Translations under genes and position numbers: made by a program
Part shown: positions 20,901-25,738 of the stretch, one piece after another
Layout of the letters: each line of letters starts with the position of its first letter
How positions within the stretch are numbered: the stretch's first letter is position 1
Notes under the pieces: generated by a model
What the model was told of the DNA's origin: nothing
What the model saw: only the letters and a program-made list of their open reading frames with translations
The model's database searches: none
Assembly (NCBI RefSeq): GCF_025460835.1
Contig: NZ_JAMXAY010000045.1
Span: 1 to 38,108, forward strand
Direction of reading: 5' to 3'
Source: Parapedobacter soli
Lineage (GTDB): Bacteria; Bacteroidota; Bacteroidia; Sphingobacteriales; Sphingobacteriaceae
DNA: 38,108 nucleotides

Positions 20901-21227
20901 CTACTGGATCTTTTCGTTATTGCGGTGCCGGTCTGCATCGCGTATTTGTTTCTTCTCCAGGTTTTTCATCAAGGCTTCCGTGAGGTCGACCCCCGTCTGG
21001 TTGGCCAGACAAATCAACACGAAAAGGACATCGGCCATCTCATCGGCCAAATTTACGGCCTCATCCGATTTCTTAAATGACTGTTCACCGTACTGGCGGG
21101 CCATGACGCGCGCTACCTCACCCACCTCTTCCATCAAAATCGCTGTGTTTGTGAGTTCATTGAAATAACGTACGCCTGTGGTATTTATCCAATGGTCTAT
21201 GATTTCTTGAGCTTCTTTGATTGTCAT
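20901..21227 (-). CDS. MazG-like nucleotide pyrophosphohydrolase
   Basis: A 108-residue all-alpha NTP pyrophosphohydrolase of the MazG/YpjD class, which hydrolyses (often aberrant) NTPs to NMP and PPi. The Mg-binding pattern is clear: EExxE at 33-37 (LMEEVGEVARV), then ExxD at 63-66 (LADEMADVLFVL). It is a single-domain form. It lies 44 bp downstream of dtd on the same strand, and the gap holds a short direct repeat. Housecleaning of nucleotides beside a D-aminoacyl-tRNA proofreader suggests a small quality-control unit. Confidence 0.9.
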   Translation of the reverse strand: MTIKEAQEIIDHWINTTGVRYFNELTNTAILMEEVGEVARVMARQYGEQSFKKSDEAVNLADEMADVLFVLICLANQTGVDLTEALMKNLEKKQIRDADRHRNNEKIQ

Positions 21228-21242
21228 GGTCGTAAGTATTTA

Positions 21243-21266
21243 GTCTCATATCACACGTCTCATATC
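21243..21266. repeat. Short direct repeat GTCTCATATC, 14-bp period
   Basis: GTCTCATATC occurs at 21243-21252 and 21257-21266 in the dtd/MazG intergenic gap. Only two units are present. Similar short runs (TAGT-rich at 38-60, TACGTACTACATACT-like at about 15370-15390) occur in other gaps of the window. Confidence 0.5.
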
Positions 21267-21271
21267 TCCAT

Positions 21272-21730
21272 TCAATGATTATCCTTGTCTTTGGTATCCA
21301 TGACAATGGTCACCGGTCCATCATTAACGAGTGACACCTGCATGTCTGCACCAAAAATACCGACAGCTATTTCTTTTCCCAACTGATTGGATAGTTCGGC
21401 AATCATCGCCTTATACAGCGGAGCGGCGTGAGCAGGCTTTGCTGCGCGGATAAAGGACGGGCGATTGCCCTTTTTAGTCTGTGCAAATAGCGTGAACTGT
21501 GAGATCAACAGAATATTTCCCCCAACATCATGCAGCGACCTGTTCATTAATGCATTTTCATCACCAAATACACGGAGATTGGCAATTTTCTGAGCCAGCC
21601 ACCGAATATCGTTCTCGTCATCGCTATCTTCAATACCCAACAGTACCAAAAACCCCTGTCCAATAGCACCGACAACCTGCTGTTCAACGGTGCACGATGC
21701 TTCCGATACACGCTGGATAACGGCCCGCAC
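21272..21730 (-). CDS. dtd: D-aminoacyl-tRNA deacylase
   Basis: A 152-residue homodimeric proofreading enzyme that removes D-amino acids (and glycine from tRNA-Ala) from mischarged tRNA. The two family motifs are present: SQFTLFA (77-83) and the cross-subunit Gly-cisPro motif NDGPVT (136-141). It begins at a GTG that shares one base with the TAG of the upstream dehydrogenase (TAGTG), which points to translational coupling. The last residues (DTKDKDNH) are variable. Confidence 0.96.
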   Translation of the reverse strand: MRAVIQRVSEASCTVEQQVVGAIGQGFLVLLGIEDSDDENDIRWLAQKIANLRVFGDENALMNRSLHDVGGNILLISQFTLFAQTKKGNRPSFIRAAKPAHAAPLYKAMIAELSNQLGKEIAVGIFGADMQVSLVNDGPVTIVMDTKDKDNH

Positions 21731-22968
21731 TATTTTTTGGCTATACGGTAGAGCCTGCCGCCATCTGTAACGGCATACAAGGCCCCATCTTTACCTTGAT
21801 GTACATCGCGGAAGCGCTGTCCTTCTTCTTCCAACAGCCGCTCTTCGCCGACAACCTTATTATCCCTGATGACCAATCGGGCAATATGCGTGCTGCTTAG
21901 GCCGGCGACGAAAAGATTATTCTCCCACTCGGGGATTGAATTACCCGCAAAAAAAGTCATCCCACCCGGCGAAAGCACGGGGTCCCAATAATAAACCGGC
22001 TGTTCCATACCCTCCTGCTGCTGGATTGCATCGCCTACTTTATTGCCATTATACTCAATACCATAGGTAATTATGGGCCAGCCGTAGTTTTTTCCGGGTT
22101 GGATGCGGTTTATTTCATCTCCACCGCGGGGTCCAAACTCGCCCTCCCAAAGGTCGCCTGTGACGGGATGGAAAGCTAATCCCTGTACATTACGGTGGCC
22201 ATAGGAGTAAATCTCGGGGCGGGCATCGCTCCGCCCTTCAAAAGGATTTCTTGGCGCTGGCTTTCCTTCCGGCGTAATGCGCAAGACTTTACCCAATGCG
22301 GAGTTGAGGTCTTGCGCCTGTGGCCTCGTCACAATATCGGAGCGTTCACCGGTGCTCACAAAGATATTTCCCGTTTTATCAAATAGAATACGCGAGCCAT
22401 AGTGCAAATTGCTTTTATGTGCCGGCGTGGCCTGGTATATCACCTGGGCATTTTCGATTGTTTTTTCATCGTCGGCCAGCCGGCCTTTGGCTACCGCCGT
22501 CAATGTACCCCCGGGGGTATCTTGTGAAAAAGACCAATATACCATACGGTTGTTTTCGAAATCCGGATCAATGGTGACACCCAACAGTCCGCCCTGGCCT
22601 TCGGAATTAACGGGTGGGAGCCCCGTGATGGCCTCGCTTAGATCGCCTGCTTGTGTGGCAATGCGGAATGTACCTTCCTTCTGGGAAATCAACAACCTAC
22701 CGTCGGGAAGGTTGGCAATACCCCACGGCCGGTTGAGCCCTTCGGCCAATACCCTTACATCAAAAGGCGTAAAGGTCTTCATTCCTGCCACCCGGGTCTG
22801 CCCTTCAAAAGCAGGCGCATAGTCTGTATTGGCTTCCTTAGTTTCTACCGGTGCATACGTAGAGTCACTCGGTGTAGTAGTGGTCTCTTTAGATACCGAA
22901 GAATCGCATGATGAAATTGCCAACGATAATACCGCAATAGCTGCGATTGATTTGGATGTATGTCGCAT
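21730..22968 (-). CDS. PQQ-dependent sugar dehydrogenase-like lipoprotein (GSDH/sorbosone dehydrogenase fold)
   Basis: A 412-residue exported six-bladed beta-propeller. The ATG at 22968 is chosen because it yields a clean lipoprotein signal ending at Cys21 (LSLAISSC). The frame stays open about 40 codons further upstream, but that would bury the signal. After a Ser/Thr-rich linker comes the soluble glucose dehydrogenase pattern: LNRPWGIANLPDGRLLISQKEG, GQGGLLGVTIDPDF, YGHRNVQGLAFHP, EFGPRGGDEIN and NYGWPIITYG. It would oxidise aldoses with PQQ if the cofactor is available; many Bacteroidetes homologues are uncharacterised. It lies 106 bp after the TonB receptor and is coupled to dtd. Confidence 0.88.
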   Translation of the reverse strand: MRHTSKSIAAIAVLSLAISSCDSSVSKETTTTPSDSTYAPVETKEANTDYAPAFEGQTRVAGMKTFTPFDVRVLAEGLNRPWGIANLPDGRLLISQKEGTFRIATQAGDLSEAITGLPPVNSEGQGGLLGVTIDPDFENNRMVYWSFSQDTPGGTLTAVAKGRLADDEKTIENAQVIYQATPAHKSNLHYGSRILFDKTGNIFVSTGERSDIVTRPQAQDLNSALGKVLRITPEGKPAPRNPFEGRSDARPEIYSYGHRNVQGLAFHPVTGDLWEGEFGPRGGDEINRIQPGKNYGWPIITYGIEYNGNKVGDAIQQQEGMEQPVYYWDPVLSPGGMTFFAGNSIPEWENNLFVAGLSSTHIARLVIRDNKVVGEERLLEEEGQRFRDVHQGKDGALYAVTDGGRLYRIAKK

Positions 22969-23074
22969 AACAATATTTTTGTTTGAAAGTAACGACATTT
23001 TCCGCACAATATCAATGCCAGTAGTCGCTTTTTTGGTTCTTCCGTTATTTGCCATAAGCTCCCGGTAGCGATTG

Positions 23075-25546
23075 CTAAAACTTAACATTCAATCCGAGCA
23101 AGAAATTGGCTGTAGCCTGTGGATAATAGAAATTGTAGTCTACACGATCCGTTTCAGATAGATAGTAACCCCAGGTGTATCCACTCGATGCATATTTCTC
23201 ATTAAATATATTATTGACCAACAGCGTAACACCGACATTTTTCAATTTCCAGAGCGGTGTGTGATAGGCTACCCGAACATGGTTTATGAAAAAACCATCG
23301 ATACTCCGGTCGGAATTGCCGGTATTGTCTAGATACTGTCTGGAAACGTACTTGCTAAGTAACGCTAGCTCGAACGGCTTCCACGGTTTAAAGCTCAATT
23401 CATTGGAAACTACCCAATCGGGAGAAAATGAGATATTGGTGGTGGGGAGGAAATTCTCCACATCGCCTACGATCTCAGTGAAGTTCTTGATCTTATTCCG
23501 ACTATATGCCACCGTTGCACCCCACGCAAACCATGCATTAGGCGCCCAGCGTCCATCAAACTCCAAACCGACACGGTAACTATCGTCGACATTTGTCCTT
23601 AAGGTACTACCCACGTCATTGAGTTGGCCGGTTAGCACCAACTGGTTTTTATATAACATCGCGTAACCATTGAGCCCGATGTTGAAGTGCTGCGACCGGA
23701 CGCGGTAACCGGCCTCGATGTCATGCAGCTGTTCGGGTTTGGGGGTCTGTTCGATGGGCCAATCGGTAAAGTCACTCCGGACCGGTTCCTTATTGGCCAC
23801 AGCGTAGGATGCATACAGGTTGCTGGCCGCAGACAACTGGTAGGTAATCCCGACTTTTGGGTTGAAGAAATTGAACAATGCATCTTGAGTAAGATCACGC
23901 AGGTCGTGATCGATACCGGTGATTGCATAATCAATCCGCCGGTATTGCACATCTGCAAACAGCGAGAACTTATCCAATCGGTATGATGCCTTCAAATAAG
24001 TATTTAAGTCCGCTTTGGTAGCATCGCCATTGTAATACCGATAAGCGGTGCCGAACCCACCATCGGTATGCAGTGGGTATCCCCCTGCGGTAAACAAAGG
24101 GTATTCAGACCACACGATATCGCCGTAATGCCCACCTTCGTAGCGGTTGTACGCACCACCCCAAGTCAGTTCAAGTCCGTCGGTGTTTTTGTACACGAAA
24201 GAATAGGTCATTCCATAAAAATGGTTGTCTAGCCACCGCTGACGAACCAAATCGGTTTCCGTGATGGCCTGTCCATTCACGACGATGGGCGACAGGCCAT
24301 AGTCGATATACTCATCTTGATTTCGGAATTGTTCATAGTACCCTTTGCCCCGGGTGTAATGCAGTGCGGTATTCAGTGTAAGCCTGTCGGCAATTGCCGA
24401 TGAAAACAGTAACTGGTAATGCGTCTGCTGATAGTTGTCGGTTTCGTTATCATAGAGGTACTTATTATACCGCCGATCGGAATTGAGTAAGTTTTCAGTT
24501 TCTTCGGTTGTCAGGCCGTCGTCTGCTGCATAGGCTTCCATCGCCGCCACGTCTCCGGTAAGTCTCGATTCGGGTGTACCGTACCACGCCTGGTAAGTTT
24601 TCTCTTTGCCACCGAATACATTGGCACGAAGCAGGCTGTTTGCGCCATGCCATGCACCGGAGAGGTAGAAGGATTGGAGATTAGACGTGGCGCGGTCGAT
24701 ATAACCATCGCTACTGATACGCGATAAGCGCCCGTCGAAGCTGAAATTGCCATCGATAAGGCCGGTGCCGAGCCGGATGGTATTTTTCAATGAACGGTAT
24801 GACCCGATAGACTGGTCGAGTTCGGCGTAAGCCTCTTCATTGAGTGTATTGGTTTGGATGTTGAGGCTGGCACCGAATGCACCGGCGCCATTGGTAGAGG
24901 TGCCTACACCACGTTGGATCTGGATATTATCCACCGAAGAGGCAAAATCGGGCAGGTTGATAAAAAAGGAGCCCAAGCTTTCTGCGTCATTGAGTGGAAT
25001 GCCGTTGACAGTCACATTGGTGCGTTGCGCATCGCTACCGCGGATACGCATACTGGTATATCCGATACCGGCACCGGCATCCGATGAAATAACCACACCC
25101 GGTGTTTGGTCGAGTAGGAACGGGATATCCTGTCCTACATTACTTTTGGCAATATCGGCCTTGCTAATATTCTTATAGGTGGTCGCTGTATTTTCGGTGG
25201 CGCGTGTTGCCTGGACAACCACCTCATCGGTCAACAACGTTGTGCGATGCAATAGTATGTCGACCTGTTGATTACCGGTGAGTGTAAAGTGCTTCTGTTG
25301 TGTTTGGTAACCCAAATAGCTCACGGTGATGGTGTAATTGCCCTCTTTAATATTACGGATAATTACCATTCCTCCGGCATCAGACTTCCCTTGGTAGATT
25401 GTTCCGTGGAGATGTATCGACGCGCCGGGCAATGGCCGGCGGCTTTCTGCTTCTACGACAGTGACGGTGACGGTGTGTTGTGCTATGGCGACAGCCATAG
25501 CAACATACATGAAAAACGCAATCCCTGCGATTGATTTTTTAATCAT
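23075..25546 (-). CDS. TonB-dependent outer-membrane receptor, predicted thiamin transporter
   Basis: An 823-residue outer-membrane transporter powered by TonB. It has a signal peptide (about 1-22), a carboxypeptidase-regulatory-like domain (about 26-110, with ISYLGYQ-type end), a plug (about 125-230, with MRIRGSDAQRTNVTVNGIPLNDAES) and a 22-strand barrel ending in aromatic LGLNVKF. It lies directly behind a TPP riboswitch. In Bacteroidetes, TPP-controlled receptors of this type were predicted to import thiamin (OMR1 class). The substrate therefore follows from regulation rather than from the protein itself. The usual pnuT and thiamin pyrophosphokinase partners are not in the window. Confidence 0.92.
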   Translation of the reverse strand: MIKKSIAGIAFFMYVAMAVAIAQHTVTVTVVEAESRRPLPGASIHLHGTIYQGKSDAGGMVIIRNIKEGNYTITVSYLGYQTQQKHFTLTGNQQVDILLHRTTLLTDEVVVQATRATENTATTYKNISKADIAKSNVGQDIPFLLDQTPGVVISSDAGAGIGYTSMRIRGSDAQRTNVTVNGIPLNDAESLGSFFINLPDFASSVDNIQIQRGVGTSTNGAGAFGASLNIQTNTLNEEAYAELDQSIGSYRSLKNTIRLGTGLIDGNFSFDGRLSRISSDGYIDRATSNLQSFYLSGAWHGANSLLRANVFGGKEKTYQAWYGTPESRLTGDVAAMEAYAADDGLTTEETENLLNSDRRYNKYLYDNETDNYQQTHYQLLFSSAIADRLTLNTALHYTRGKGYYEQFRNQDEYIDYGLSPIVVNGQAITETDLVRQRWLDNHFYGMTYSFVYKNTDGLELTWGGAYNRYEGGHYGDIVWSEYPLFTAGGYPLHTDGGFGTAYRYYNGDATKADLNTYLKASYRLDKFSLFADVQYRRIDYAITGIDHDLRDLTQDALFNFFNPKVGITYQLSAASNLYASYAVANKEPVRSDFTDWPIEQTPKPEQLHDIEAGYRVRSQHFNIGLNGYAMLYKNQLVLTGQLNDVGSTLRTNVDDSYRVGLEFDGRWAPNAWFAWGATVAYSRNKIKNFTEIVGDVENFLPTTNISFSPDWVVSNELSFKPWKPFELALLSKYVSRQYLDNTGNSDRSIDGFFINHVRVAYHTPLWKLKNVGVTLLVNNIFNEKYASSGYTWGYYLSETDRVDYNFYYPQATANFLLGLNVKF

Positions 25547-25616
25547 TTTGATAATTTGTAATTTTAGTTAAACACAACCGCTATAAGGGGTTCATAGCAG
25601 CGTAATTATTTAACTT

Positions 25617-25720
25617 ACCTCCCTACGCCGGCATTATCCGGATCAGGTGCTCCCGATACATCGGGATGGGTATGATCTCAGCCTTTATTTGTGTTTGTTG
25701 GTACAAACAAGGCACCCCTA
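25617..25720 (-). ncRNA. TPP (THI-element) riboswitch
   Basis: On the minus strand the conserved parts appear in order. GGGGTGCC opens P1/P2, and a variable P3-side arm follows. The pyrimidine-sensing CTGAGATCATACCC comes next, then a P4/P5 arm with CCTGATCC and GGATAATGCCGGCGTAGGGA. This matches the TPP aptamer that binds thiamin pyrophosphate. It lies 70 bp upstream of the TonB receptor start. The expression platform is not obvious, so either termination or blocked translation initiation could be the mechanism. Confidence 0.95.
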
Positions 25721-25730
25721 AATGATAGTG

Positions 25731-25738
25731 CGAAGATA
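25731..25738 (-). promoter_or_regulatory. -7-like element TATCTTCG before the TPP riboswitch
   Basis: One mismatch to TAnnTTTG, placed so that transcription would begin just before the aptamer at 25720. The -33 element is not clear. Confidence 0.4.

Follow-up and report, generated by a model that had tools for sequence, protein, structure and literature searches.

The Locus and Its Question

What does a thiamin pyrophosphate (TPP) riboswitch control when the gene run behind it does not look like a thiamin operon? The question is raised by a 38,108-nucleotide stretch of the Parapedobacter soli genome (contig NZ_JAMXAY010000045.1; the whole analyzed stretch is referred to below as the window), in which a TPP aptamer lies upstream of a gene for a TonB-dependent receptor, followed on the same strand by genes for a dehydrogenase, a D-aminoacyl-tRNA deacylase (dtd), and a MazG-like protein. 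An earlier reading of the sequence (the original prediction) left two alternatives, that only the receptor is controlled or that thiamin status also reaches the later genes. The best joint explanation, and one we consider probable, is that the riboswitch lowers the receptor only, that its neighbors form a separate unit, and that the leader is of a transporter-type form, with an extra helix in the junction between P2 and P4 (J2/4) and a hairpin with a C-rich loop (the C-loop hairpin). As an arrangement of genes the locus is ordinary, in that a TPP riboswitch precedes a thiamin receptor gene and the neighbors are unrelated; its leader is a transporter-type variant.

The Aptamer and the Receptor

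Run at the gathering threshold, cmscan found no match in the whole window. With an E-value threshold it returned a full-length match to the TPP family RF00059 (model positions 1–105; 48.3 bits, E 1.2e-8), below the gathering cut-off of 54.3 bits, a shortfall that we attribute to an insert in J2/4 absent from the model. The conserved core, CTGAGA ... ACCTGATCCGGATAATGCCGGCGTAGGGA, is intact within 25620–25681 (minus strand), its columns are mostly invariant among 11 aligned leaders, and P2 to P5 are likewise shared with RF00059. The position also fits, because TPP aptamers precede thiamin transport and synthesis genes: orthologues of the receptor were searched for over 60 genomes, and in all 51 loci compared (the window and 50 fetched neighborhoods, with L075 and the broken-up receptor frame of L064 assigned by hand) a TPP aptamer lies 5' of the receptor. 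The window element is, on its core sequence and context, a real TPP aptamer and a divergent member of RF00059, with TPP binding predicted. The aptamer of the original prediction and its association with a thiamin-type receptor are thus both borne out, although the span proposed for the locus (20901–25720) drops the aptamer's first 9 bases.

The aptamer ends 55 bases before the receptor start, and a -7-like promoter element stands directly 5' of it (Table 1). By eye, TTTG or TTG-N18-20-TANNTTTG recurs in the equivalent position in several Parapedobacter relatives, the comparison being with the promoter consensus of Bacteroidota. The receptor itself matches PF07715 (plug) and PF00593 (beta-barrel) over their cut-offs, identifying it as a TonB-dependent receptor, and its orthologue in another Parapedobacter genome (G007, contig C3) is 77% identical; a sequence search at E 0.001 found no relative of solved structure. 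Its predicted function is the import of thiamin. The locus resembles the OMthi-pnuT-tnr3 operon of Bacteroides, where a TPP riboswitch also precedes a TonB-dependent receptor (Costliow and Degnan, 2017; PMC5613172).

An Additional Helix Within the Aptamer

Consensus folding with RNAalifold used 11 leaders, from the nine Parapedobacter genomes, G023, and G026 (the G023 row ends before the last hairpin and carries gaps there). The consensus runs P2, P3, an extra 7-pair helix, P4, P5, and an outer stem of 8 pairs around a hairpin of 10 pairs whose loop is ACCCC. Changes on both sides in at least one sequence are seen at 19 of its 47 pairs, including all 7 pairs of the extra helix. RF00059 aptamers may carry an optional helix, P3a (Barrick and Breaker, 2007; PMC2258182); the extra helix of the window differs in lying in J2/4, 3' of the P2 3' strand, and not at the P3a position.

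The insert is characteristic of the receptor and transporter leaders of the family Sphingobacteriaceae. Leaders were taken from 103 of the 104 TPP places in relatives (a place in G031 was omitted), and J2/4 was measurable in 92 of these, including all 35 receptor leaders and 31 of the 39 other leaders within the family. The P2 3' strand and P4 are at least 15 nucleotides apart in 33 of the 35 family receptor leaders and in 4/4 pnuT leaders, compared with 0/31 for the family's other measurable TPP leaders. Outside it, 7/16 receptor leaders are this long, with at least two of the cores (L078, L081) misread. A second set, from named genomes, has a long J2/4 in 39/39 Sphingobacteriaceae-like receptor leaders and in 15/33 others, some of the latter with misread cores. 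The insert is a likely reason that many such elements fall below the Rfam cut-off and risk being missed in routine annotation.

In five loci (L045, L052, L054, L062, L063) the J2/4 insert is an imperfect palindrome of 80–100 bases. By eye, several of these carry AAAAGGT-type repeats, giving the impression that the aptamer has taken in a small palindromic element.

The C-Loop Hairpin

The hairpin behind the aptamer is a candidate expression platform, and 9 of its 10 consensus pairs have at least one of the 11 sequences changed on both sides. For wider counts, 20 further regions were added to the relatives' TPP places (18 of the same class, plus G116 and G124), 12 of them receptor leaders; a hairpin was scored if it had CCC in its loop and a stem score of at least 12, blind to the 5' sequence, and expectations came from dinucleotide shuffles. 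Such a hairpin is present in 43/63 receptor leaders (5.0 expected) and in 3/56 other TPP leaders, those of thiS, thiM, and other genes (3.3 expected). At a score of at least 15 the numbers are 23 receptor leaders against 1.5 expected and no other leader against 0.9. These two thresholds were chosen after earlier hairpin results and then kept for the named-genome set, which shares at least three leaders with the first and includes 8 loci of 80 without a recognizable core; there the hairpin was found in 39/72 leaders (5.0 expected).

The C-rich loop repeats the sequence of the P2 3' strand and is complementary to the P2 5' strand, AGGGGU. When the hairpin was counted together with complementarity to the P2 5' strand, at a score threshold of 18 fixed before the run, it was found in 46/63 receptor leaders (6.1 expected), 2/4 pnuT leaders (0.3), and 4/56 others (4.2), or 33.4 of 48 against 5.2 expected with weighting by genus. 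As bare duplexes, the loop outdid the P2 3' strand as partner of the P2 5' strand in all nine of a hand-picked group of leaders; in the window the energies are -10.7 and -7.2 kcal/mol, respectively. The base before GGGG also pairs with the base following the C-run of the loop in 28 of 36 genera (20.1 expected; a fraction of 0.00055 of permutations reaches this), with T-A and C-G combinations besides A-T. Covariation from hairpins chosen by complementarity is biased; the count relied on here used a stem score of at least 9 with complementarity ignored, and one locus (L084) of the 63 receptor leaders is missing from it.

Several observations weigh against a switch built on this pairing. At a score of at least 12 only 1/4 pnuT leaders has the hairpin (0.3 expected), and 20/63 receptor leaders in the first set and 33/72 in the named set are without it by score, among them all 5 Dyadobacter loci, though in these the pattern probably misplaced the aptamer end. 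The covariation beside the loop is not repeated in the named set (11/17 genera against 10.0 expected, p 0.35), in which this position is almost constant. With the hairpin left aside, complementarity of the leader to the P2 5' strand is weak in single leaders, many of them not being significant against dinucleotide shuffles, and tests based on the hairpin took its place. Because related genera are not independent, the hairpin and covariation numbers overstate the evidence. A different candidate, a seven-base match between the 5' leader and the start codon in the fold of the window, was dropped on finding it shorter or broken by eye in G001, G003, and G005.

It is quite possible that the C-loop hairpin is no more than an ordinary hairpin of the leader, complementary to P2 by accident, with control by the usual switching of P1. 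The failure of the covariation to recur would fit this, as would the position of the P1 3' strand, which by eye would overlap the outer stem (P1 is absent from the RNAalifold consensus); in addition, CCTAAAG, the complement of the leader's own 5' strand, occurs in 8/48 other TPP leaders, mostly before thiS-like genes. Against it, the stem changes freely around a C-run that is kept in the loop, the hairpin is enriched in receptor leaders and not in other TPP leaders, and no U-tract follows it in the window.

Possible Mode of Control

Plentiful TPP would act through the riboswitch to lower production of the outer-membrane thiamin receptor. If the C-loop hairpin is the expression platform, pairing of the loop with P2 and binding of TPP would be mutually exclusive, and this exclusion may be the switch: the P2 5' strand could pair with either the loop or the P2 3' strand, and TPP binding, which requires P2, should therefore release the loop. 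Control may be exerted on translation or RNA stability rather than on termination; control after transcription is favored because there is no U-tract behind the hairpin in the window and because the transporter transcripts of B. thetaiotaomicron are described as showing no significant change with thiamin (PMC5613172).

More generally, the receptor leaders of Bacteroidia might constitute a distinct form of TPP riboswitch, with a four-way-junction aptamer (by virtue of the J2/4 helix in Sphingobacteriaceae) and a loop mimicking the P2 3' strand, a proposal that we regard as doubtful. In such a P2 exchange, TPP would keep P2 closed, and without TPP the loop would capture the P2 5' strand. Bacteroidota make little use of Shine-Dalgarno sequences, and an exchange of this kind would operate without one, and without a U-tract terminator. 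Known adenosylcobalamin (AdoCbl) riboswitches offer a parallel, in that a C-rich hairpin loop pairs across domains as a regulatory contact, the partner in the pseudoknot being sequence outside the core (PMC2258182). The window loop differs in lying 3' of the aptamer, and its partner would be a P2 strand of that aptamer, to the exclusion of P2.

How TPP riboswitches function in Bacteroidetes was described as uncertain by Costliow and Degnan (PMC5613172). In a survey by RNA-seq, six of 57 TPP riboswitches were transcriptionally active, and none of the six was from Bacteroides, though Bacteroides was included (PMC12121620). A hairpin specific to transporter leaders and able to trade places with P2 would provide a definite, mutable target for this question. 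Among the papers listed in literature searches, judged by titles and the beginnings of abstracts, none deals with a C-loop hairpin or J2/4 helix in TPP riboswitches of Bacteroidota. A 2019 preprint by Costliow, Degnan and Vanderpool reportedly (going by its title) deals with transcriptional or translational control by the TPP riboswitches of Bacteroides, and may already describe the hairpin.

Table 1. Positions of the leader elements and genes in the window, with the basis for each.
Feature	Position	Strand	Basis
-7-like promoter element TATCTTCG, directly 5' of aptamer	25731..25738	-	Sequence
TPP aptamer	25602..25729	-	cmscan RF00059, below gathering score
P2 5' strand AGGGGU, complementary to downstream hairpin loop	25714..25719	-	Sequence; RNAalifold consensus P2; duplex energies
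Extra hairpin in J2/4, between P2 3' strand ACCC and P4	25651..25666	-	RNAalifold; insert length counts
Outer stem AGUUAAAU / GUUUAACU enclosing C-loop hairpin	25566..25615	-	RNAalifold, 8 pairs, mostly invariant
C-loop hairpin (loop ACCCC), candidate expression platform	25577..25601	-	RNAalifold covariation; enrichment over shuffles
TonB-dependent receptor, OMthi-like	23075..25546	-	Pfam Plug, TonB_dep_Rec_b-barrel, CarbopepD_reg_2; orthologues under TPP aptamers
Promoter-like TTG-N21-TACTTTC before dehydrogenase	22985..23015	-	Shuffles; constant spacing in relatives
GSDH-family (glucose/sorbosone dehydrogenase-like) gene, lipoprotein-like start (by eye)	21730..22968	-	PF07995, 430.7 bits
dtd, D-aminoacyl-tRNA deacylase	21272..21730	-	TIGR00256 over cut-off
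MazG-like pyrophosphohydrolase	20901..21227	-	PF03819 over cut-off

Thiamin Genes in the Rest of the Genome and the Receptor Substrate

The genome to which the window belongs (5.17 Mb in 177 contigs, 99.99% complete) has two TPP matches, the window aptamer and one on contig C97. ThiC was not found in it by a search that was positive in 13/14 control genomes, and imported thiamin or a precursor is therefore probably needed. Thiamin pyrophosphokinase (TPK) was likewise not found in it with PF04263, which was positive in 12/14 controls, 6 of them over the cut-off; with two of the controls missed, a divergent TPK may nevertheless be present. As originally predicted, neither pnuT nor a TPK gene is part of the gene run behind the receptor. 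The only PnuT-family gene is on contig C145, between genes resembling malate:quinone oxidoreductase (by eye) and acyl-CoA dehydrogenase, with no TPP match upstream of its operon; in four relatives (G001, G023, G020, G009) pnuT has a TPP aptamer of its own within about 160 bases. These features set P. soli apart from the Bacteroides OMthi-pnuT-tnr3 operon, its pnuT being on another contig without an aptamer, no TPK being found in it by PF04263, and the genes behind its receptor being unrelated, although split operons with retained or duplicated riboswitches have been described in Bacteroides (PMC5613172).

Could the receptor import something other than thiamin, such as the pyrimidine precursor hydroxymethylpyrimidine (HMP) or thiamin phosphate? 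The missing ThiC and TPK would be compatible with this, as would the operon with a ThiE-like gene that follows the genome's other TPP aptamer and the PafA-type phosphatases (a cluster of 11, one member tested) near the receptor in relatives. We nevertheless consider it unlikely: PnuT adjoins the receptor in some relatives, and a B. thetaiotaomicron receptor under a TPP riboswitch supports use of thiamin (PMC5613172), which would bear on the window receptor if it is an orthologue of BT2390.

The C97 aptamer (L003, 9551–12149) precedes genes assigned by family search to an S-adenosylmethionine (SAM) methyltransferase, an aminoimidazole ribonucleotide (AIR) synthase-like protein, and a ThiE-like protein; the second of these is HypE- or ThiL-like by NCBIfam, with scores far below the cut-offs. 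By eye, a TPP aptamer also precedes a SAM methyltransferase at L113, L115, L126, and L175. The methyltransferase-linked element is present and ThiC absent in G000, G001, and G004; in G007 ThiC is absent, yet no such element was found. Possibly the unit constitutes an unrecognized route of thiamin salvage. Another side observation concerns a family of 188-residue proteins (a cluster of 13; L045, 11977–12543) found in the receptor-ThiE cluster of many members of the bacterial family: one had no Pfam match, two had no NCBIfam match near a cut-off, and the protein is a candidate for the missing TPK.

The Genes Behind the Receptor

The same-strand dtd and MazG-like genes of the original prediction were confirmed by family models (Table 1). 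Its "pyrroloquinoline quinone (PQQ)-type" dehydrogenase proved right as to family only; TIGR03606 gives 109 bits, its cut-off being 434, so that the score lends no support to dependence on PQQ. Although the reading frame of the dehydrogenase stays open as far as 23088, the lipoprotein-like start listed in Table 1 fits a gap of 22969–23074 between it and the receptor. This gap had been proposed as the place to look for a promoter or a terminator, and in the window it holds a promoter-like element and no recognizable terminator.

Throughout the nine Parapedobacter genomes the receptor is followed by dtd (9/9) and mazG (9/9), with the dehydrogenase in 8/9; the ninth, G008, lacks both the dehydrogenase and the promoter-like element. 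All 8 genomes with the gene have TTG-N21-TANNTT(T/C) before it, the spacing always being 21 bases, and the pattern, with spacings of 18–22 bases allowed, occurs in 1.7% (window, 300 shuffles) to 19% of shuffled gaps. A strong stem with a T-rich tail is found in the gaps of five of the nine (G003–G007), equalled by 0/100 shuffles, with 4 of its 14 pairs changed on both sides among the five sequences; the gap of G002 has a weak one (equalled by 3/100), and those of the window, G001, and G008 have none. The strong stem is part of the best fold of the gaps at L039 and L041.

Outside the genus the surroundings differ. Elsewhere in the family, the genes behind the receptor are often drawn, in varying combinations, from those for PnuT, an acyl-CoA-dehydrogenase-like protein, a PafA phosphatase, ThiE, the 188-residue protein without a Pfam match, and an acetyltransferase-like protein (by eye). 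Receptor, dtd, and mazG stand together in G023, from another genus, as well; G023 apart, the window arrangement is genus-specific in the genomes compared, with pnuT and its partner gene elsewhere. Of the 33 genomes with both dtd and mazG, 22 have the two side by side on one strand. The receptor is next to the pair in 10 of these 22 (the nine Parapedobacter plus G023); outside the genus, the adjacent pair is away from the receptor in 12 of 13 genomes, three of the 12 having no clear receptor orthologue.

Of the two alternatives originally left standing, control of the receptor only is therefore favored, because of the promoter-like element (8/8), the terminator-like stems (5/9), and the frequent location of dtd-mazG away from the receptor. 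The dehydrogenase, dtd, and mazG most likely form a separate neighboring unit, probably outside the thiamin system, and their control by thiamin by design would be unlikely. Points on the other side are that the window sequence fits the promoter-like pattern imperfectly, that the L040 gap folds no better than shuffles (z 0.87, compared with -1.78 for L041 and -3.26 for L039), and that the window gap has no recognizable terminator and also folds no better than shuffles, so that read-through into the dehydrogenase is possible in this species. The best terminator-like match of the window gap region was not counted, being within the dehydrogenase coding sequence. That all four genes form one TPP-controlled operon, with read-through carrying thiamin status to the dehydrogenase, dtd, and mazG, is very unlikely despite their common strand, their order in the genus (receptor and dtd neighbors in 9/9, the dehydrogenase between them in 8/9), the recurrence of receptor-dtd-mazG in G023, and the lack of a terminator in the window gap, given the promoter-like element, the relatives' terminator-like stems, and the pair's location elsewhere beyond the genus; to our knowledge, nothing links the dehydrogenase, dtd, or mazG to thiamin, which also counts against it.

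Other TPP Elements in Relatives

Seven of the nine Parapedobacter genomes have a solitary TPP aptamer before the 3' end of a convergent gcvP-like gene (by eye; L258–L261 as neighborhoods, and L124, L131, L132, L139, L140, L141, L143); none was found in the genome of the window or in G008. Behind the aptamer comes a strong hairpin of terminator-like form, which has T-runs on both strands. In the four of the seven whose flanks were read, it is divergent from a gene for a small membrane protein, and no same-strand ORF (open reading frame) of 90 residues lies within 3 kb behind it. Going by these surroundings, the element has the appearance of an independent TPP-binding RNA, about 140 bases long, with TPP binding predicted.

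At three loci from three other genera (L262, L263, L264) the gene behind the TPP aptamer is on the opposite strand and the neighbors differ each time; at L263 a same-strand gene begins about 800 bases beyond the aptamer. At L174 (G116) two TPP matches lie about 340 bases apart on one strand, possibly in tandem.

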